Below are positions 5,462-43,710 of a DNA stretch of 57,350 bases, one piece after another. The DNA is taken from assembly GCA_012728995.1 (NCBI GenBank), contig JAAYEB010000242.1:1-57350 (forward strand). The letters are read 5' to 3'. This stretch comes from Fibrobacter sp. GTDB taxonomy: Bacteria > Fibrobacterota > Chitinivibrionia > Chitinivibrionales > Chitinispirillaceae. The notes under the pieces were generated by a model. It was given only the letters and a program-made list of their open reading frames with translations. It was not told the DNA's origin and did no database searches. The translations under genes were made by a program, and so were the position numbers. Numbering within the stretch: position 1 is the stretch's first letter; each line of letters opens with the position of its first letter.

Positions 5462-6395
5462 AAATTCGAAAAAATGTGTAAACAATAACTGCGTTTATTT
5501 CCTTTTGACTAGGTTTTCGAACATAATAGTCACCTGGAATTAATTATTCAATCATAAAATCACTTTTTTGAGGCTTTTTATTTTTAATCCTGATATTTTC
5601 CCAAACCGGATTTCCACATTATCAAAAGTCTCCCAAACCAGGTAATGTTGGGACTAAGTCCTTTGGATCATAAATGGAGGATATCTACTTTACATAGAGA
5701 TGTTCGCAAATGAGAGAGAGAGTATACAATCTCAATACGTGCAATAAAAAAACATTTTTGTTTTGACTTTGCATTACGAATATCTTCCCGATAAGAAACA
5801 GGATAAAAGGCAGCTTTGGGAGCATAAATATGAAAACTGCTATCACTTTTTCCAGAGATGGATTTACAGGAAATTTTATATATCTGGTCAGACTGCCTAT
5901 AATCCAGAACCAGCATATACAAAAGATTGTACAAAATATTCCATAAGAGACTTTTTAGTACCATAATTTGTAGTGTTGACAACATAACAAAATGCGCTGT
6001 CGTGTCAGTATGGTTTTGGAGGATTCACAAATCGCATAAAAAACTCTTGACGGCAGTTTTGTGTTATGTAAACCAGATATCTCTGGCTTGATCAGGAAAT
6101 TAAAATATGTGTTTAAATTTTAAATGTAATGTTGTATAATATCATATTTGTGAATATTTTCAGTCCAAAATAAATCAGTGCACAAGTCCACATTGAACCT
6201 TATTTGCGGACAAATAGGCTACAGATCCATTTTTTTACAAATACTGTTGGTTTCAAATGTTTCCAAAATTGAGTTTATCTGAATAAGTGTGATTAAATGG
6301 CGATTGTAGAATAAGGCAGAGAACCAGTTGAAGATTCATTTCGGACAAAAGTGGTTTATTAGGATATTAAATTACAAAATAAAGGATTAGGATTG
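5462..6395. other. Long intergenic region (about 930 bp) without a recognised gene
   Basis: Reading frames of 60-105 codons exist on both strands around 5670-5985 but resemble no protein family and have no ribosome-binding sites. A long imperfect inverted repeat lies at 5982-6069 (acataacaaaa on the left, ttttgtgttatgt on the right). A cttgacggcag stretch within it could be part of a structured transcript or a small mobile-element end. Nothing else identified. Confidence 0.4.
5982..6069. repeat. Imperfect long inverted repeat, possible hairpin or MITE-like end pair
   Basis: The arm acataacaaaa beginning at 5982 pairs with ttttgtgttatgt ending at 6069, with a 2-nt bulge. The inner gctgtcg/cggcag bases can extend the pairing. 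About 50 nt separate the arms. No T-run follows, so it does not look like a terminator. Confidence 0.3.
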
Positions 6396-7496
6396 ATGGT
6401 TGGCTCTGGTGTTCATGTGTTGATAATTGATGATGAATTATCTATTTGTATGGGGGTTTGTAATTTACTGGAACTGAATGGATATAGAACAGCATATGCA
6501 CTTAGTGGGTGGGACGGGCTTGAGTATCTGGATATTAATCCGGATGTTGATATAGTACTGCTTGATGTAAACCTGAGTCCGGGCTTTAATGGTCTTGAGG
6601 TCCTTAGAGAAATTAAAGATAAACAAAAATATGTTCAGGTTATTATGTTTACTTCCCATGATACTCTTGAGATCGGTTTGGAGAGTATGAAAAGAGGTGC
6701 ACTTGATTTTATGAGTAAACCATTTAACGAAAAGGTTTTTCTAAAATTGACAAATTTGGCACTTGAGCGAAAGCATCTTGAACAAATTCAGGACCTGTAC
6801 CTTGAAATAGTTGTTCATGACCTAAAAAATCCTCTTCAGATTGTATCTGGTAGTTTTGAAATGTTGAAGTACGGAATAGATCAAAATAAAAGTGATTTGC
6901 AAGAAAGAATGTTCGAAACGGGTAAAATGGGAATCAGACAGATTGAGACAATGATAAATAATATTTTGACAATATCAAGATTGGAAAAAAAAGCAATGAC
7001 AGCAGAGAATCAGCAGTTTTCAATTCAAGAGCAGGTTGAATCTTCATTACAACTGTTTCAGCCTTTAAAAATTGAGTTTGATTCTGATCTGCCTCAGGTT
7101 ATTTATTCTGATAAAGACCTCTTTAACCGTGTTTTGACAAATTTGACAAGTAATGCCCTTCGTTTTGTTACTCCTGGAGATCCGGTGGAAATATCAGTTG
7201 AAAAAAATGGTGAATGTATACTTGTTTCTGTTACCAATAATGGATCATTTATTCCCGAAGAATGCAGAACCGAGATATTTGATAAATTTATAAGTATACG
7301 AAAAAACAATAATATGATTCGAGGACAAAATTTCGGCTTGGGTCTTACTTTCAGCAAAATGGCTGTAGAAGCTATGGGGGGAGAGATTTGGGTTGAAAGT
7401 GAGAATCTTACACCCAGCACAACATTCAAATTTACAATTAAAAATGATGTCAAGCGTATCAGCCGGCAATTAAAAGACAGTTTTAATTCTTGTTAA
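6396..7496 (+). CDS. Response-regulator receiver fused N-terminally to a histidine kinase
   Basis: 366 aa from the ATG at 6396 (a TTG lies one codon earlier), with aggattagg upstream. The receiver domain (about 1-120) keeps the acidic DDE pair, the phospho-acceptor Asp57 (LLDVN), Thr86 and Lys108. HisKA follows with the phospho-His at about 141 in VVHDLKNPL. HATPase_c shows the N box (LTNLTSNALRF) and the G2 box (GQNFGLGLTFSK); the usual DxGxG is reduced to VTNNGSFIP. No membrane segment, so it is a soluble relay protein driven through its receiver. No partner regulator is adjacent. Confidence 0.85.
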   Translation: MVGSGVHVLIIDDELSICMGVCNLLELNGYRTAYALSGWDGLEYLDINPDVDIVLLDVNLSPGFNGLEVLREIKDKQKYVQVIMFTSHDTLEIGLESMKRGALDFMSKPFNEKVFLKLTNLALERKHLEQIQDLYLEIVVHDLKNPLQIVSGSFEMLKYGIDQNKSDLQERMFETGKMGIRQIETMINNILTISRLEKKAMTAENQQFSIQEQVESSLQLFQPLKIEFDSDLPQVIYSDKDLFNRVLTNLTSNALRFVTPGDPVEISVEKNGECILVSVTNNGSFIPEECRTEIFDKFISIRKNNNMIRGQNFGLGLTFSKMAVEAMGGEIWVESENLTPSTTFKFTIKNDVKRISRQLKDSFNSC

Positions 7497-7682
7497 ATTG
7501 TGTTAATAAATTTGCAAAAAGGAATTATTGTTTACTAAACCTTGAATAATGCAATTCCAATGTAATTTCTTCTGCGTGATACCGGTATACTTTTTCAAGT
7601 TGGCCGAATCTATTTTGTATTCCTGGGGTAGAAGCTCGAAATACGAAGTATCAATTTTTTATTATTCCATCATGGAGTTTTA

Positions 7683-8504
7683 ATGGGTCAGCAAATATAT
7701 TGTGAAAAATTTATCAATGGTCCATTTCGAAACCAAATAATATGGGATCAAATTCGTTCGTATCACAAATATTCTGAATCAATACCTTGCATTGAAAGCA
7801 TTGTTCAGAAAAATACCAGCCCTTTTGTATCAGAATGGATAATCAATATTGATGGAGTACCTTTTACATGGCAACAAATGGAATCTTTTGAACAGCCAAA
7901 TGGATGTTTGAAATTTGAACTTACCCAAGGTGATTTTGACCAGTTCCATGGACATTGGAAAGTTGAATGTACTGAATTCAATTTAGTAAAAATATCATTT
8001 CATTTAGAATATTCTTTGGGGATTCCAGTTATTGAGGATATTACAGGTAATATAATACAGGAGAAACTTGCAGGTCTTGTAAGTTCGATGCTTGATAATC
8101 ATATAAAACAGATCGAAAATACCTTTATTGAAGAACGTCGGTTCGAGCGATTTAACTTCGGGACTTTATTCAAATTTTCTGTTGATAATACTGAAATTGT
8201 TGCAGAACTAATCAATTTATCGCGTGGTGGTATGTTAATAAAATTAATAGATGGTGTGATAAAACCTCAACCAGGTAAACTGACATGTTTTAAGTTAGCA
8301 GGATTTTCTCTGGATTCTGAATATATGGATTGTGACATGGAAAAATGTGCAAGGGTAATATTCTGTTCTCCATTATCACAAAAAGATTTAAATGATATTT
8401 TTTCGATTTGGAAAATGAAAAATGAAATCTGTGATGATATGATCAGTTTTTATAAGATTTTATCAAAACAGAAAACTTCAGAATTATTAAAAGACCCGAT
8501 ATAA
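7683..8504 (+). CDS. SRPBCC (START-like) domain fused to a C-terminal PilZ domain
   Basis: 273 aa with ggag before the ATG. Residues 5-145 follow the polyketide-cyclase/Coq10-type SRPBCC pattern: GPFRNQIIWDQIRSY at the start, paired strands including VSEWIINIDGVPFTW, a FHGHWKVE strand and a long C-terminal helix. Residues about 150-260 form PilZ, with the c-di-GMP-binding RRFER (152-156) and NLSRGG (178-183). PilZ is an established c-di-GMP receptor; SRPBCC domains bind hydrophobic ligands. The gene precedes the flagellar cap operon, so a role in motility or envelope response to c-di-GMP is plausible. The domain pairing is unusual. Confidence 0.7.
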   Translation: MGQQIYCEKFINGPFRNQIIWDQIRSYHKYSESIPCIESIVQKNTSPFVSEWIINIDGVPFTWQQMESFEQPNGCLKFELTQGDFDQFHGHWKVECTEFNLVKISFHLEYSLGIPVIEDITGNIIQEKLAGLVSSMLDNHIKQIENTFIEERRFERFNFGTLFKFSVDNTEIVAELINLSRGGMLIKLIDGVIKPQPGKLTCFKLAGFSLDSEYMDCDMEKCARVIFCSPLSQKDLNDIFSIWKMKNEICDDMISFYKILSKQKTSELLKDPI

Positions 8505-8667
8505 TGCGAACGAATAATTGAATAAAAGCAGGTTCGGTATTCAACATGCTTAAGCAATTATAATATTTTGAGTGAAATATTCTATTGTGATTATTGAAGA
8601 TAATTATTAAATTGAGCGCTTAAACAACCCAACAAATAAAATAGTCCTTTAATCTCCCCAAATGCAG

Positions 8668-8694
8668 TAAAGTTTTATTTTCTGATGCCGATAA
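8668..8694 (+). promoter_or_regulatory. Sigma-28 (FliA) promoter of the fliD operon
   Basis: TAAAGTTT, exactly 11 nt, then GCCGATAA: identical to the enterobacterial FliA consensus. It lies 42 nt before the fliD ATG and is followed by aaaggagc, a good ribosome-binding site. Confidence 0.9.
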
Positions 8695-8736
8695 ATATAA
8701 TAAAATTAATACATACTGCGACAAAGGAGCTGAAAA

Positions 8737-10704
8737 ATGGGTATTTCTGTTAATGGACCATCCGGAATCGACACGCAGTATATAATTGAACAGTTAGTTG
8801 CCCTTGAGCAAAATAAAGTTACTAAAATTGAGAATGAACAAAAAGCTTATCAGTTAAAAATCGATGCTTTTTCTAAACTTAAATCACTTTTAACTGATTT
8901 GAGAACAAATGCTTTGGCACTATCTGAAAAAAAATCTTTTGACCTTTTTTCTTCAAGCAGTTCTGATGAAGATATTGTAACTATTAGTGGTGGAACCGGC
9001 AGTGTCGATGCATCTTACGATCTAAGGGTTTTTCAACTTGCCAGTGCAGAGAAAATGATTAGCGCTGATGGCTTGATTGAAGATCAGAATGCATCACTGA
9101 CAAGCCTGGGGGTTGGTGAGGGAATTATAAGTATCGATGGCGTAGAAATAACTGTTGGCAACAATGATTCTCTTCAGGATCTTCGCATGAAGATAAACAA
9201 TGCAACAGATTCCAGTGGGAATAAAGTAGGTGTTTCTGCTTCTGTTGTCAGGGTTAGTGATGATAATTATCGCCTAGTTCTTACTTCAAAAAATACGGGT
9301 AGTGATGGTGTAGAGTATAAGGATATTTCCGGAAGTTTATTGCAGGATTTGGGAATAATTACCAGTGCTGATGGTGAAAAAGGAAATATTTCACAGGAAC
9401 TTACATCATCGGGAGATATTATTTCTGAGTTTGGTTCATTCGCAGAAAGTAAAGTTGTTCAAGTGAATGGCACAGATAATAATGGAGAATCGGTAACAAA
9501 AACATTCGTGGTAAAAAGCGGAAGCACTGAAGATGATTTTTTAAAAGAGGTTGAAGCTGCGTATCACAATATGGTTGATGCGCAATTTGATGGCGGAGGT
9601 AATCTGGTAATTACAGATAAAGTTACAGGATCTTCACAGCTTGCTTTGGATTCACTCAAAATTGGGTCGACTGATTTTACTTTCAATACAAGTAGAATCG
9701 GGGTTGAGGGTGAGGGAGTGCTCTCTGCAGGAAAAGATGCTTATTTTAGTGTCGAAGGTATTTTCATGAATTCTGACACTAATACAGCTTCAGGGTTTAT
9801 GACTGGAGTAACTTTTGATTTTAATGCAGTTAGTACACAAAAAGATGTCAGAGTTTCACTCAAGAGAGATGTCGATGGAATCAGAAATAAGTTTCAGGAA
9901 CTTATAAACAGTTTTAATGCTATAGTCAGATTCGCAAAAGATAGTACAAAGATAAAGGATCCTACTGACGAAAAAAGTACTGCCGGGGTTTTGTCCGGAG
10001 ATTCTACCGTAAATTATCTTGTTTCCAGTATCCGTTCTTTTTTTCAGCAAAATTCAGATCTTTTCGAGGGAACATATACCAACTTTACCATGTTAGGCCT
10101 GAAAACTGATACAAAAACAGGTGAATATTCTTTGGACAGCGAGATGTTTGATAAGGCATTAAATACAAATCTTGATGAAGTAATGAATCTTTTTACAAAA
10201 TTTGGAACATCTGATAATTCCAATATCGTATTTGGAAGAAGTACTTCAGAAACCAAAGAAGGGAAATATATACTTGAAGAAGTAGATGATGACCATTTAC
10301 GGATAAAATTGGAGGGAACATCTGAATGGTTTATATCTGATGCAAGAAGAGGTGATATCATTACCTTTTCGGATGGGCTGGTAAAAGGGTTGTCGTTGAC
10401 TGCACCAAACGGATCCATTGGGGATGGTAATACAGCGACTTTTACATTTTCAAAAGGCCTGGGAACTGTTCTTGATGAGGAGATTCAGAAATTAACTAAT
10501 AGCAGTGAGGGTATGATAACTTTACGGCAGGAATCATGGCAGAGGAACATACAGAGTACAGATGATCGCATTCTTAGAATGAATGAGAGAGTTGAAAAAT
10601 ATCGTGACCGGTTGATCAAACAGTTCAGCAACATGGAAGTGGTTATGAACCAGATGCAAACACAGACATTAAGTATGCTTAATTCATTGGGAATGTATCA
10701 GTAG
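8737..10704 (+). CDS. fliD: Flagellar hook-associated protein 2 (filament cap)
   Basis: Forms the pentameric cap at the filament tip that folds exported flagellin. At 655 aa it is longer than the enterobacterial protein but common for the wider family. The N-terminal FliD region is clear (GPSGIDTQYIIEQLVALEQNKV with the following coiled coil). The central variable domain is Ser/Gly/Asp-rich. The C-terminal region ends in the heptad helix (RVEKYRDRLIKQFSNMEVVMNQM) that packs into the filament. No signal peptide, as expected for a type III export substrate. It is first in an operon with fliS and a fliT-like gene, driven by a sigma-28 promoter. No flagellin gene is present in the window. Confidence 0.95.
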   Translation: MGISVNGPSGIDTQYIIEQLVALEQNKVTKIENEQKAYQLKIDAFSKLKSLLTDLRTNALALSEKKSFDLFSSSSSDEDIVTISGGTGSVDASYDLRVFQLASAEKMISADGLIEDQNASLTSLGVGEGIISIDGVEITVGNNDSLQDLRMKINNATDSSGNKVGVSASVVRVSDDNYRLVLTSKNTGSDGVEYKDISGSLLQDLGIITSADGEKGNISQELTSSGDIISEFGSFAESKVVQVNGTDNNGESVTKTFVVKSGSTEDDFLKEVEAAYHNMVDAQFDGGGNLVITDKVTGSSQLALDSLKIGSTDFTFNTSRIGVEGEGVLSAGKDAYFSVEGIFMNSDTNTASGFMTGVTFDFNAVSTQKDVRVSLKRDVDGIRNKFQELINSFNAIVRFAKDSTKIKDPTDEKSTAGVLSGDSTVNYLVSSIRSFFQQNSDLFEGTYTNFTMLGLKTDTKTGEYSLDSEMFDKALNTNLDEVMNLFTKFGTSDNSNIVFGRSTSETKEGKYILEEVDDDHLRIKLEGTSEWFISDARRGDIITFSDGLVKGLSLTAPNGSIGDGNTATFTFSKGLGTVLDEEIQKLTNSSEGMITLRQESWQRNIQSTDDRILRMNERVEKYRDRLIKQFSNMEVVMNQMQTQTLSMLNSLGMYQ

Positions 10705-25774: not shown

Positions 25775-27187
25775 TTGAGAAAAATAGCATTCTTATTCTT
25801 AGTTTTTATATTACTCTTCAGATGCAATGAAGACCCAGTTTCACCTCAGGATTCATTTAATGACCAATTCCAGTACCTGTTTAATGAAGTTGAATCGATA
25901 AGAGGAGAGAAGTTCTCGAGAAATGTTCAGGTAGAAACTGTGAAGAATAAAGATGTAAAAAATCTGATGGATTCTTTACTTTACGGCGGAATAATTGATG
26001 ATTACATAATTGAGGAGGCTAAATTATATGTTGCTTTTGGCTTCGTTTCATCAATTGATGAGTATTTTGAGGATAATGAATCTCATTTGGAACAGGACAT
26101 TGGTGGGTTTTACATTGAAGGACTGGAGAAACTATATATAGTTTTTAATAATTCACCTTTAGAAATTGAAGAGTATGTTATTGTTCACGAATTAACTCAT
26201 GCATTACAGGACCAGCGGCATGATTTGACAGCTTATTCCAGAGGTGCTAAAACACTCGACGAAGCGGTCGCAAGGAGCTACATAATTGAAGGTGAAGCTA
26301 ATTATGTTATGAATATTTTTGATATCTGCAATTACGCTGACATTGATTTCAGATATATACAGCAGTCATTTTTAGATACAATTTTCCCACCCTATACAAT
26401 CAGAGCTTACAGGGATCTGTTAGATGAGTTCAATGCGCTTGAACCTGCTTATATAACTCTGTCTTCAACACACAAGTATTATCATGGAATGTTTATAGTT
26501 AATTCCGGCATTAAGCATGGTGGATGGCAGGAATTTGATTCCTGGTTTCTAAATCCACCAATTTCAACTGAACAGATGATTCATTGGGCCGAAAATATAA
26601 CATATAATACACCTTGTAGTTTTGTTCCGGTTTATCATTTTACCGGTTTACCTAATTCTTCAGCGCTTTTAGATAATGGTACCCTTGGGGAGCTTTATAT
26701 TACCGTGTTATTGTACTGTAATGGAGTTACAGATTATGATATCGCTGGAAGCGGATGGGCTGGAGATCAATATTGGGTATTTGAGAATAAAAGTAAGGGA
26801 GAATTTTATTTGATCTGGTACACTACATGGGATACCGATGAAGATGCGGTAGAATTTTTTAGAGCATATCGCAATCTGCTTGTAAACAGTGGGAAAGAAT
26901 ATTTACAGGTAGAATTGGTTGAAGATTCATTGTTCTGTTCTGAATTCGGAGAAAAAGAACTGTGTAACAGAGTAATAAAAACCGGAAATGATGTATTAAT
27001 TGCAAAATCAGTTCCGGTTTCAGGTATGGAAACGATTTTTAATGAGCTCAAACAGGTAAAAGAACCATCTGAAACTCTTGCAAAAACTGGTATCGCTACA
27101 CATGATGAGTTAAAAAGTCATTTCAGGGTTCGGTATTCAAGTAAAAAAATAGTAAGAAAATACCATGAGGGTTTAATCGGTAAATAG
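25775..27187 (+). CDS. Lipoprotein zinc metallopeptidase-like protein
   Basis: 470 aa with a TTG start at 25775 supported by ggag 7 nt upstream and a clean lipoprotein signal (MRKIAFLFLVFILLFRC). The zinc site is HELTH (His138-His142) with a downstream EGEAN (Glu172/Glu174) as the likely third ligand, a gluzincin layout. The wording VIVHELTHALQDQRHDL is shared with uncharacterised extracellular proteins of several phyla. It acts outside the inner membrane; the substrate is unknown. Confidence 0.7.
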   Translation: MRKIAFLFLVFILLFRCNEDPVSPQDSFNDQFQYLFNEVESIRGEKFSRNVQVETVKNKDVKNLMDSLLYGGIIDDYIIEEAKLYVAFGFVSSIDEYFEDNESHLEQDIGGFYIEGLEKLYIVFNNSPLEIEEYVIVHELTHALQDQRHDLTAYSRGAKTLDEAVARSYIIEGEANYVMNIFDICNYADIDFRYIQQSFLDTIFPPYTIRAYRDLLDEFNALEPAYITLSSTHKYYHGMFIVNSGIKHGGWQEFDSWFLNPPISTEQMIHWAENITYNTPCSFVPVYHFTGLPNSSALLDNGTLGELYITVLLYCNGVTDYDIAGSGWAGDQYWVFENKSKGEFYLIWYTTWDTDEDAVEFFRAYRNLLVNSGKEYLQVELVEDSLFCSEFGEKELCNRVIKTGNDVLIAKSVPVSGMETIFNELKQVKEPSETLAKTGIATHDELKSHFRVRYSSKKIVRKYHEGLIGK

Positions 27188-36042: not shown

Positions 36043-38397
36043 TTGAAAACCCAAAAAAAGATACATATACTGCTGATCGATGATAAAAAAAATGTATATA
36101 CAATGCGTTCCATATTGTCGAAAGCTTTAATACCTGAATTTACGTTCCATTATAGCTCATGCGCATCAGGAGTAAAACGTAAGATTGTATCTGAATCTGT
36201 AGACGTAATTTTTTTTGGGCTTGTTCCTCATGACATAAGGGTAAGGAAGATTATTCCAATACTTGAAAGCATTAACATACCTGTAATACAGCTTATCGAT
36301 TCAGAATTCCCAAAAAGTAGAATCAAGTTTTCGTTCCGGTACAGACTCTTAAGGTCAAGCCTTGACAGCCTTTTAATTTCGCATGTAATTCAGATGTTAT
36401 CAGAATCAAAAATCTGCTTGCAGAAGCATGCATCTGTTTTATCAAATGAAACCCGTTTTTTAAATGTACTGCTCAATACTGCTGACGGGATAGTGGTAAC
36501 AGATTGTAACCGCAAGATTCTTTTTATTAATCCGGCTGCAAAAAACATGCTTGGTTTTCAGAATTCGGAATATTTTGCATATTCAACAGATCAAGGGGTT
36601 ACAAAAGAGATAAAAATTGTAAATCGTAAAAACAGAAAAAATATTGAACTTTGCTGTTCACAAACTGTATGGGATAATAAAAATGCTTTACTGTTTACTC
36701 TGAAAGATATAACAGCCAGAAAGCAAATTGAAAAAGGGTTGCGTTTAAGTGAACAGCGTTATGCATATGCAATTAGAGGTACAAAAGATGGTTTATGGGA
36801 TTGGGATCTGGTTAAGGAGCGTATTTATTATTGTGATCAATGGAAATCCATAATTGGTTATTCAAATGAAGAGATTGGAGAAAATGTTCAGGAATGGTTT
36901 TCGAGGATTCATGAACATGATATCAGGAAAGTTAAAAAAGCTTTACAGGATCATTTATGTGGCAGACTTGAGCAGTTTGAAAGTGAACATCGATTAAAAC
37001 ATAAAAATGGCAATTGGTTTTGGGTGCATGCCAGGGGAACTGCAGTGCGTAATAAATCAGGTAAGGCAATACGTATTGCTGGTTCACTGACAGATATAAC
37101 AGAAAGAAAAGGGGCCGAAACACAACTTAAAAAGGCTCTGGAAGAACTTAGATTTGCTCTGGCATCAGAAAAAATTCTCATGGAAGAGCTGGATAAGAAA
37201 AACAAGGAACTTATTGAGTTGTCAATTACTGATGGATTGACAAGTTTGTACAATCACCGGTTCATACAGGAACGGTTCAATTTTGAGTTTAAAAGGGTAC
37301 AAAGATATGGAGGCGCTCTTTCATGTCTCATTCTTGACATTGATCATTTCAAGCATGTTAATGATACTTTTGGGCACCAGTTCGGTGATTATGTAATCCG
37401 ACAAATTGCATCAATCATTAAGACAAAGTCTCGTGAGGTTGATATTTGCGGTAGATACGGGGGGGAAGAGTTCATGGTCTTGTCCAATTTAACCGGAACA
37501 AACGCCCTTAAATATGCAGCGAAGCTACATTCTGCAATAGAATCATATAAGTTTACATGTAATGACAAAACAGTCAGAATTACTGTAAGTATTGGAATTG
37601 CAGAATACCAGAAGAATATAAAAACAAAACAGGAAATGATTGAGCGGGCAGATATCGCATTGTATCAGGCTAAAAAAGATGGAAGAAATCTGATACGGTT
37701 ATGGAAGAGTATCGATCATCAGGATAATGAATCTATTGCAGTTAACGAGATTAGAGAACTGAAGCACAAGTTTCAGGACCTTTCAATCAAGATGCGAAAT
37801 ACATATATGGAATCGATCAATGCACTAATCAAAGCAGTTGATGCAAAAGATCCATTAGCTTGTGAACATTCGAGAAATGTTTCTGTATATTCGGTGGAAA
37901 TTGCCAGATACCTGAAATTATCTGAACCGGATATCGAAATAATCAGAAGTGCTGCCTTGCTTCATGATATAGGCAAAATCAGTATCCGTGATCAGATTCT
38001 TTTAAAAAGAGAGCCTTTAACATCTAAAGAGATGGAAATTCTCAAACGTCATCCTGAAATAGGTGTAAGTATTCTGAAAGAGTTGAAATTTCTGGAAAAA
38101 GAAATTCCAATTATCCTCTACCACCATGAGCGTTATGATGGCAAAGGGTATCCACATGGGTTAAAAGGCAGAGAAATTCCTATAGGTGCACGTATCGTAG
38201 CTGCAGCAGATGCTTTTGATGCAATGACATGTGGGCGTATATACAAAAAACCATTATCAATGAAAAATGCCTGTAAAGAGATACTGGGGGGGAGTGCAAC
38301 ACAGTTTGCTCCAGATATTGTCGATGCATTGCTTCAACTGATAAAAATTGGAAAGATTCGAAAATGTTCAAGAGAAAGAATTCGGGGTATAAAATGA
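36043..38397 (+). CDS. Degenerate receiver-PAS-PAS-GGDEF-HD-GYP c-di-GMP enzyme
   Basis: 784 aa from a TTG start at 36043; the next ATG would cut into the first strand of the receiver (IHILLIDDKKN). Order: pseudo-receiver (1-125) with Phe at the phospho-site position (VIFFGLV), two PAS domains (about 133-225 and 235-350, with the second ending SLTDITERK), a coiled coil, GGDEF (about 390-550) with the active-site motif GGEEF, then HD-GYP (about 580-770) with LLHDIGK and HHERYDGKGYP. Both output sites look intact, so it could make and break c-di-GMP. It is coupled to a STAS gene. Confidence 0.88.
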   Translation: MKTQKKIHILLIDDKKNVYTMRSILSKALIPEFTFHYSSCASGVKRKIVSESVDVIFFGLVPHDIRVRKIIPILESINIPVIQLIDSEFPKSRIKFSFRYRLLRSSLDSLLISHVIQMLSESKICLQKHASVLSNETRFLNVLLNTADGIVVTDCNRKILFINPAAKNMLGFQNSEYFAYSTDQGVTKEIKIVNRKNRKNIELCCSQTVWDNKNALLFTLKDITARKQIEKGLRLSEQRYAYAIRGTKDGLWDWDLVKERIYYCDQWKSIIGYSNEEIGENVQEWFSRIHEHDIRKVKKALQDHLCGRLEQFESEHRLKHKNGNWFWVHARGTAVRNKSGKAIRIAGSLTDITERKGAETQLKKALEELRFALASEKILMEELDKKNKELIELSITDGLTSLYNHRFIQERFNFEFKRVQRYGGALSCLILDIDHFKHVNDTFGHQFGDYVIRQIASIIKTKSREVDICGRYGGEEFMVLSNLTGTNALKYAAKLHSAIESYKFTCNDKTVRITVSIGIAEYQKNIKTKQEMIERADIALYQAKKDGRNLIRLWKSIDHQDNESIAVNEIRELKHKFQDLSIKMRNTYMESINALIKAVDAKDPLACEHSRNVSVYSVEIARYLKLSEPDIEIIRSAALLHDIGKISIRDQILLKREPLTSKEMEILKRHPEIGVSILKELKFLEKEIPIILYHHERYDGKGYPHGLKGREIPIGARIVAAADAFDAMTCGRIYKKPLSMKNACKEILGGSATQFAPDIVDALLQLIKIGKIRKCSRERIRGIK

Positions 38398-42148: not shown

Positions 42149-42465
42149 ATGTTAAAGATAGCCTATTTACGTTATAGCTATCAAGCAGAATAGTAAAGTT
42201 TTGTAATTGAAATGGGGTTATCATTTTTTTTTTAACAGACTGAAATTACAAGCAGCAGTATTCTTTTCACAAGCTTTCTTTTGATACTGGTGTATCATGA
42301 TTGTGCTTTAATGACTGGAATTCAATAATTGACCTTGAACGGTAACCGGTTTCGAGAGAAGTTACATTAGTCTCAGTACACTTCAAACAAATAATTGCCT
42401 TGTTTTCGGGGTTCTATTGTTGGGGAATTGTCTGATTCTGCAAAACCGGAGTGTATTTTTTAAAC
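42149..42465. other. Intergenic region between divergent genes
   Basis: No coding frame recognised. A small palindrome TGATAC-TGGT-GTATCA lies near 42282-42297 and may be a regulatory site. Promoters for the MlaD-like gene and the 42466 gene must lie here. Confidence 0.35.
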
Positions 42466-43710
42466 ATGAATTTGAAAACTTTTATAAGTATATCACTGAC
42501 TGTAGTTTTTTTTAAAAATTCTGATGCCGAGCCTGTTGTTATAAATGGTAGCATGATCCGATCACTGGTAGGAACTGAACTGAACAGAATTCGTATACAT
42601 GACTGGTCTGGTAATCCGATTCCATTCCAGATTGATGAGATTACAGACAGCGGAGAGTATGTGTGTCCTGATGGAGAGGCTTCCAATGAATATAGCAGTA
42701 ATGGGGTTTTGGATACTCAGGATGAAATTGTGTTTTTATGGGGTGACTGCAGTAAAAAAATTATCGAAAACCCGGTTGACAGTAGTGCGAAGAGAGTAAC
42801 GGTTCAGATAAAAAACCGAAATGAAACACGATATGTATTGATTAGTGATGATAAATCGATCGGGTTATCAAAAAAACAGTATATCCGGTATGACCATGAA
42901 AAGCAGATGCTGTCTACTCCATACTTCTATGCACAATTTGGGAAAGATCGATTCCATTTTATTACAGCAGGAGTTAAAAACTTCGGGAATGATGATTATG
43001 TTACTTTGACCAATGAACTGAGGATAAAAATTCTCCTGAAAGCACTTTGGGGACTTCTTCCAATTCGATATTCGGAAAATAATCTGGTTTGTGTTGTTAA
43101 AAGGTATAAAGTAGGTCCAATAAGGGTGATCAGAAGAGGTGACTTTCATCTTAATTTAGGGTTAGGATTAAAAGGGAGTCGGGCGGCTGTAAACCAGATC
43201 TGCTATCCATCAATGGTAAAGGTTCCTGTTTATGTACATGTACCTGTAAGGTTCCGGTCTTTTTTTGGTGAAGCATATATTGAAATAACTCCTGTTATTA
43301 ATTCTGCAGCAGACGGGTATGAATTTTTTGTCCCCAAAGCAGATTTTCGTGTCAGGACTAAAGGCACAGAAATTGATACACTTTTGATGATCAATCCAAA
43401 TAATGAGTATATGTCTGTTAATGATGGAACCAGAGGGTATGGTTGGGTACTTAAGGCTGATATACCGGATACACTTTTGCGAAGAAGTTCATTTGTTTTC
43501 AGGCGCCCATCTGTAAGAAATGGCGTTTCGGATTGTGGGTTCAGAATGATTCTTCGTGATCTTCCAAAGGGATATTACGAGATTACAAATTGGGTTTTAT
43601 TTCCAGGTTGTGTTCAGATAAGAGAACTCAGTGACTATTTTGAATCTGGAATTGCTGCATCTGAAATATTAACTGATTATGGTAATTTCAGGAATCGTAT
43701 TGCAGATTGA
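42466..43710 (+). CDS. Secreted protein of unknown function
   Basis: 414 aa from the ATG at 42466, giving signal peptide MNLKTFISISLTVVFFKNSDA; a GTG five codons earlier is possible. The mature protein is beta-rich with the notable segments HDWSGNPIPFQIDEI, GVLDTQDEIVFLWGD, YEITNWVLFPG. The opening resembles extracellular proteins that begin with a carbohydrate-like sandwich. No enzyme motif recognised. Confidence 0.55.
   Translation: MNLKTFISISLTVVFFKNSDAEPVVINGSMIRSLVGTELNRIRIHDWSGNPIPFQIDEITDSGEYVCPDGEASNEYSSNGVLDTQDEIVFLWGDCSKKIIENPVDSSAKRVTVQIKNRNETRYVLISDDKSIGLSKKQYIRYDHEKQMLSTPYFYAQFGKDRFHFITAGVKNFGNDDYVTLTNELRIKILLKALWGLLPIRYSENNLVCVVKRYKVGPIRVIRRGDFHLNLGLGLKGSRAAVNQICYPSMVKVPVYVHVPVRFRSFFGEAYIEITPVINSAADGYEFFVPKADFRVRTKGTEIDTLLMINPNNEYMSVNDGTRGYGWVLKADIPDTLLRRSSFVFRRPSVRNGVSDCGFRMILRDLPKGYYEITNWVLFPGCVQIRELSDYFESGIAASEILTDYGNFRNRIAD

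Follow-up and report, generated by a model that had tools for sequence, protein, structure and literature searches.

The window, by which we mean the whole stretch of 57,350 nucleotides that was analyzed, contains a reading frame that the initial annotation had described as an SRPBCC (START-like) domain fused to a PilZ domain. The reading frame is real and its coordinates are as claimed. The features that bear on it are given here in the order in which they lie.

6393-7496, + strand: soluble hybrid REC-HisKA-HATPase kinase (Pfam), the conserved upstream partner of the fusion gene
7674-7677, + strand: GGAG, a Shine-Dalgarno (ribosome-binding-site-like) element by sequence, 5 nt upstream of the fusion gene ATG
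7683-8504, + strand: SRPBCC (START-like)-PilZ fusion protein, open reading frame with ATG start, 273 amino acids
7689-8123, + strand: SRPBCC/START-like domain, residues 3-147, with Pfam PF03364 at residues 20-134
7728-7745, + strand: loop RNQIIW, residues 16-21, with R16 and W21 invariant in 12 of 12 fusions
8124-8372, + strand: PilZ domain, residues 148-230, with helices C-terminal to it
8136-8150, + strand: RxxxR motif RRFER, residues 152-156, in the linker between START and PilZ
8214-8231, + strand: [D/N]xSxxG motif NLSRGG, residues 178-183
8737-10704, + strand: fliD, the downstream neighbour of the fusion gene in the window

A family search returned one copy of the fusion gene in the source genome. 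A scan of positions 6200-8800 revealed no terminator-like site; it returned 20 promoter-like sites compared with 13.3 in shuffled sequences (sd 3.4), a count that is uninformative as the DNA is AT-rich. Elsewhere in the window, the open reading frames at 25775-27187 (470 amino acids) and 42451-43710 (419 amino acids) had no Pfam match at E<=0.001.

Domain architecture of the fusion protein

The N-terminal half matched the Pfam family PF03364 (Polyketide_cyc) with E=2.1e-10 and 41.4 bits, above the Pfam cut-off of 23.4, and the alignment spans profile positions 8-123 of 126. This is the family of polyketide cyclase/dehydrase and lipid transport proteins. The nearest NCBIfam name, that of the RatA-type toxin/COQ10 family (NF007999), was rejected at 22.5 bits against a cut-off of 258. 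When the fusion protein was compared with the PDB by phmmer, the sole match was TTHA0849 (2d4r), a Thermus protein of the START superfamily, with E=3.6e-6; a profile of the 12-member family matched the same structure at 3e-16. For structure prediction, an AlphaFold model computed from the single fusion sequence was discarded (pLDDT 33) and a 12-sequence alignment was used instead, which gave a pLDDT of 77.6 and an inter-domain arrangement that is unreliable (pTM 0.56). In this model, the N-terminal half forms a helix-grip fold, running from strand 3-12 to strand 101-111 and closing with a long C-terminal helix at residues 115-147. Foldseek ranked 2d4r first among PDB structures, with a target TM-score of 0.85-0.87 and E=7.5e-10; aromatase/cyclases and plant PR-10/PYL proteins ranked next. 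A viral fold search yielded generic START matches only. The SRPBCC fold, which had been proposed from the letters of the sequence, is therefore present both by HMM and by structure comparison.

Positions of the START half that are invariant in the family (n=12) include W52, W63, G83-D84-F85, Y110 and P115. Comparison with 13 stand-alone SRPBCC relatives separated a common START core, made up of W52, W63, G83, G90 and P115, from the loop at residues 16-21, where the stand-alone proteins have a gap at R16 (inserted in the fusions) and another residue at W21. TTHA0849 belongs to the same subfamily as the N-terminal half and shares W52, W63, GDF, G90, W92 and P115 with it. Unlike the fusion, TTHA0849 is a stand-alone protein of approximately 147 amino acids that has no PilZ domain and lacks the R16-W21 loop. 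We put the chance that the START domain binds an acyl or lipid-like ligand at slightly below even.

The PilZ half was matched by PF07238 at residues 151-201 with E=4.5e-4 and 20.9 bits when the single protein was searched against Pfam (cut-off 22.5), and with 22.8 bits, over the cut-off, in the genome-wide scan. The match of the window protein covers profile positions 2-50 of 102, the second half of the domain being divergent. With Pfam matches to both PF03364 and PilZ and a START fold match, the two-domain architecture proposed for this protein is borne out, and we regard it as practically certain. The initial annotation had also read RRFER and NLSRGG as a c-di-GMP motif. This reading held: none of the 12 family members lacks R152, R156, S180, G183 or N/D178, although the other 11 are only 22-30% identical to the window protein. 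When a profile of the PilZ half was compared with the PDB, the leading relevant chains were Alg44, VCA0042 and PA4608; the matches were mostly to c-di-GMP-binding PilZ proteins, and all of these were weak (E 0.02-0.8). PlzA with c-di-GMP appeared at Foldseek rank 44 with a low TM-score. In the AlphaFold model, the long START helix stops at residue 147 and PilZ begins its first strand at residue 156, which puts the RxxxR motif in the linker. In the two-domain PilZ proteins VCA0042 and YcgR, the RxxxR linker position serves to reorient the partner domain. The source genome, with 13 GGDEF and 5 PilZ matches, both makes and reads c-di-GMP, and the fusion protein is likely to bind this nucleotide.

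A clear second PilZ-like repeat, with RxxxR and NISxxG-like motifs, was present in the C-terminal regions of three fusions (genomes G031, G035 and G036; loci L015, L016 and L017), and the fusion of G002 (L018) has an extended C-terminus in which a degenerate second repeat can be made out by eye. One of the GGDEF proteins of the genome is encoded in the window itself, at 36043-38397; it is a PAS-GGDEF-HD (HD-GYP-like) c-di-GMP turnover protein.

Distribution, partner kinase and flagellar neighbourhood

Matches to the fusion family were found in 12 of 168 Fibrobacterota genomes, and record titles place the carriers in this phylum (Chitinispirillaceae, Chitinivibrionales). The 11 orthologs align across both domains and are 22-30% identical to the window protein; PF03364 was matched by every family member and PilZ, at E<=0.1, by 10 of the 12. 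A scan of genome contigs for close relatives found none with the single fusion sequence as query, and an alignment-based scan found 7 named relatives. No relatives were present in viral contigs, and plasmids yielded no fusion, the matches being stand-alone SRPBCC proteins in Leptospira and Streptomyces. Outside Fibrobacterota, stand-alone proteins of about 150 amino acids from the same SRPBCC subfamily are widespread in the genomes sampled. A domain tree of the 12 fusions and the 13 stand-alone domains set the fusions apart with support of 100/99, and the pattern is consistent with a single origin of the fusion in Chitinivibrionales-type Fibrobacterota.

The conserved neighbour of the fusion gene is the kinase, which the initial annotation did not mention. 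In all 12 loci, an ortholog with 42-53% identity is found upstream in the same orientation; it directly adjoins the fusion gene in 11, with one AMP-ligase gene between them in G030, and the two reading frames nearly touch or overlap in G031, G036, G035 and G037. The phospho-acceptor aspartate D58, H142 and the ATP-binding asparagines are invariant among the kinase orthologs. The kinase tree and the fusion tree show the same main split, {g1, g9, g10} versus {g2, f4, f6}. Orthologs of the kinase occur in 14 of the 168 genomes, comprising the 12 fusion carriers plus G017 and G018. Because these two genomes keep the kinase without the fusion, the kinase does not need the fusion. The two proteins are probably functional partners.

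The constant pairing and the congruent main split of both trees would also fit a phospho-relay adaptor, in which the START fold serves as a protein-binding surface for the REC-histidine kinase only, its cavity is unused, and c-di-GMP modulates kinase output. The invariant R16/W21 surface loop, which is specific to the fusions and absent from stand-alone relatives, points in the same direction. However, the TTHA0849-like core is common to the stand-alone relatives and, since this conserved core is shared, the START fold appears unchanged in ways that would suggest loss of the cavity. The association of the fusion with acyl genes, described below, likewise argues against this explanation, which we consider unlikely.

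A STAS-domain gene was observed divergent from the kinase gene at L016 8715-9101 and at L096 10119-10475, and a gene at L023 11633-11977 was assigned to the STAS domain by sequence similarity only. A STAS gene was rejected as a conserved part of the locus, there being none upstream of the kinase in the window.

Downstream of the fusion gene in the window lies fliD-fliS-fliT, and by noting this position the initial annotation had hinted at a flagellar link. Such a link did not survive comparison of the 12 loci: fliD adjoins the fusion gene in the window only, and neither fliD nor any other flagellar gene was found beside it in the other 11. In G017 and G018, the kinase is followed directly by fliD-fliS-fliT, with hisS nearby and no fusion gene in between, so that three genera have the kinase-fliD junction. 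The fusion may either have been lost twice from this junction or never have been needed there. Since the junction exists without the fusion and the adjacency of fliD is unique to the window, a conserved flagellar function is unsupported. These observations bear directly on a YcgR-like flagellar brake, that is, a PilZ protein whose N-terminal domain has been replaced by one that binds the flagellar motor, and which is encoded with the cap operon. Such a role would agree with the arrangement of two domains around an RxxxR linker and with the downstream position of fliD-fliS-fliT in the window, but the other 11 fusions have no flagellar gene alongside, the kinase-fliD adjacency occurs without the fusion in two genomes, and the N-terminal domain is SRPBCC and not PilZN. 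A flagellar brake is consequently very unlikely.

Acyl-chain genes beside the fusion

In clade 2 (g2, f4, f6), the gene that follows the fusion gene encodes a long-chain acyl-ACP-reductase-like protein. It matched TIGR04058 (long-chain acyl-ACP reductase) at E=2.2e-27, under the equivalog cut-off, and the reductase part of PigE at E=2.8e-20. Genes for two further enzymes lie beyond it, one an AMP-binding enzyme of the acyl-ligase type and the other a TPP enzyme of the acetolactate-synthase type; B12/radical-SAM enzymes and a Ser/Thr kinase are present in some loci as well. Members of the reductase-like family were found in 8 of the 168 genomes, all 8 of which are fusion carriers (raw counts, shared ancestry included). 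In 7 of the 8 the reductase-like gene adjoins the fusion gene, the adjacent copy in G037 being interrupted or frame-broken; in G021 it lies in a separate cluster, again with acyl ligase, radical-SAM and kinase genes. Four fusion carriers have no acyl reductase (G019, G020, G022 and the source genome of the window, G000), and in the last of these a search at E<=1e-20 found no acyl-reductase-like gene.

A recurrent Fibrobacterota cluster of this kind was observed at L018 8148-12689, L016 306-6407 and L093 7154-12718; its members are acyl-ACP-reductase/PigE-like, acyl-AMP-ligase-type, acetolactate-synthase-type TPP enzyme or SDR, and B12/radical-SAM proteins. The cluster perhaps makes a lipophilic small molecule. 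By analogy with prodigiosin MAP biosynthesis (PigD/PigE), the enzymes of the acyl cluster might activate an acyl chain, reduce it to an aldehyde and join this to a two-carbon unit, giving a lipophilic product. We infer that the foremost candidate for the START ligand is this product or an intermediate on the way to it.

A different use of the same genes would be a c-di-GMP-gated enzyme or carrier, in which the acyl pathway uses the SRPBCC domain as a cyclase/dehydratase or lipid-transfer protein that PilZ switches on or off. The fold matches place polyketide aromatase/cyclases and lipid carriers among the relatives of SRPBCC, and in clade 2 the fusion gene sits inside the acyl-activation/reduction cluster. 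However, the fusion persists in the four genomes that have no acyl reductase and is never found without the kinase (12 of 12). Because the fusion dispenses at times with the reductase and at no time with the kinase, a signalling role is favoured, and a gated enzyme or carrier seems improbable.

In the tree, the fusion of the window lineage lies on a long branch, and its c-di-GMP motif is intact. Given this long branch and the lack of an acyl-reductase gene in the genome, the function of the protein may have shifted in this lineage, or the constraint on it may have been relaxed.

Relation to described PilZ proteins and a proposed function

The initial annotation knew of no described example of this architecture, and none was found in 5.39 million open-access papers, which were searched for mentions of PilZ alongside names of the SRPBCC, START and polyketide cyclase families. 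Co-mentions of PilZ and SRPBCC-type terms were single occurrences in papers on other topics, such as PMC10653896, in which each term appears once. The PilZ architectures surveyed in a study of Leptospirales are PilZN-PilZ, tandem PilZ and PilZ with a GAF-like insertion (PMC11800159). The Leptospira YcgR homologues in that study resemble the fusion in that an extra ligand-type domain is joined to a PilZ effector, but in these a GAF-like (GAZ) domain is inserted inside PilZ, whereas the START domain of the fusion is N-terminal (PMC11800159). Among other two-domain proteins, YcgR, VCA0042 and PlzA resemble the fusion in having a further domain ahead of PilZ, an RxxxR linker and [D/N]xSxxG on the barrel, and VCA0042 and PlzA were matched weakly by it in the PDB searches. 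Their N-terminal domain is PilZN or PilZ-like, in contrast to the SRPBCC domain of the fusion, in which no PilZN/YcgR_N domain was matched by Pfam at E<=1 and the N-terminal domain is PF03364. To our knowledge, the SRPBCC-PilZ protein is a conserved, undescribed architecture and a PilZ effector.

The receptor envisaged in the initial annotation, linking c-di-GMP to a lipid or small-molecule signal, remains plausible; it fits the evidence and is strengthened by the acyl-enzyme neighbourhood. A general form of this reading, in which the protein is a c-di-GMP effector of the cytoplasm that works with the kinase and uses its START domain to sense or carry an acyl or lipid-like molecule, is the most likely one, and we give it about an even chance. 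In VCA0042 and YcgR, which are two-domain PilZ proteins, c-di-GMP alters the angle between the domains. By the same mechanism, c-di-GMP would bind the RxxxR linker and the NxSxxG strand of the fusion protein and change the PilZ-START angle. The START cavity would hold a lipid-like molecule such as an acyl compound or an aldehyde. In many relatives, this may be what the adjacent cluster of acyl-AMP ligase, acyl reductase and TPP enzyme makes, either as its product or as an intermediate. The partner kinase would receive the combined state of c-di-GMP and ligand, or would set it. Since the acyl cluster is gone in the window lineage, the protein there would bind either a different hydrophobic molecule or the same one from another source.

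A more specific version is a dual-input receptor in which START senses an acyl or aldehyde signal from the adjacent cluster, c-di-GMP gates the response via the RxxxR hinge, and the REC-histidine kinase is controlled. This version is tentative and, taken as a whole, rather doubtful. If true, it would represent a new class of c-di-GMP receptor that integrates a home-made lipid signal with c-di-GMP. If START binds a ligand, the sensing of lipid or acyl signals and c-di-GMP would be physically and directly joined in this family; we found no description of a PilZ effector that has a lipid-type ligand domain of its own. The constant kinase and the acyl cluster provide named candidates for the output and the ligand, respectively, which makes the idea testable.

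Two broad samples of genomes outside the phylum yielded only one other protein that combines PilZ and SRPBCC, in genome G309 of another phylum; the search profile was TTHA0849-like and may overlook fusions that involve other SRPBCC subfamilies. The protein is as follows.

L092 4904-7468, - strand: PilZ-SRPBCC-Acyl_transf_2-methyltransferase protein, 855 amino acids

As in the fusion, a TTHA0849-like SRPBCC domain is combined with a PilZ domain that has intact RxxxR and NxSxxG motifs. Unlike the fusion, the domain order is reversed, acyltransferase (Acyl_transf_2, LuxD-type, E=8e-35) and methyltransferase domains are added, and the protein is found in 1 genome only. Its SRPBCC domain lies on a long branch and groups with the stand-alone domains in the tree, and the protein looks like an independent combination of PilZ and SRPBCC. 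A 7TM-GGDEF gene adjoins the gene that encodes it.
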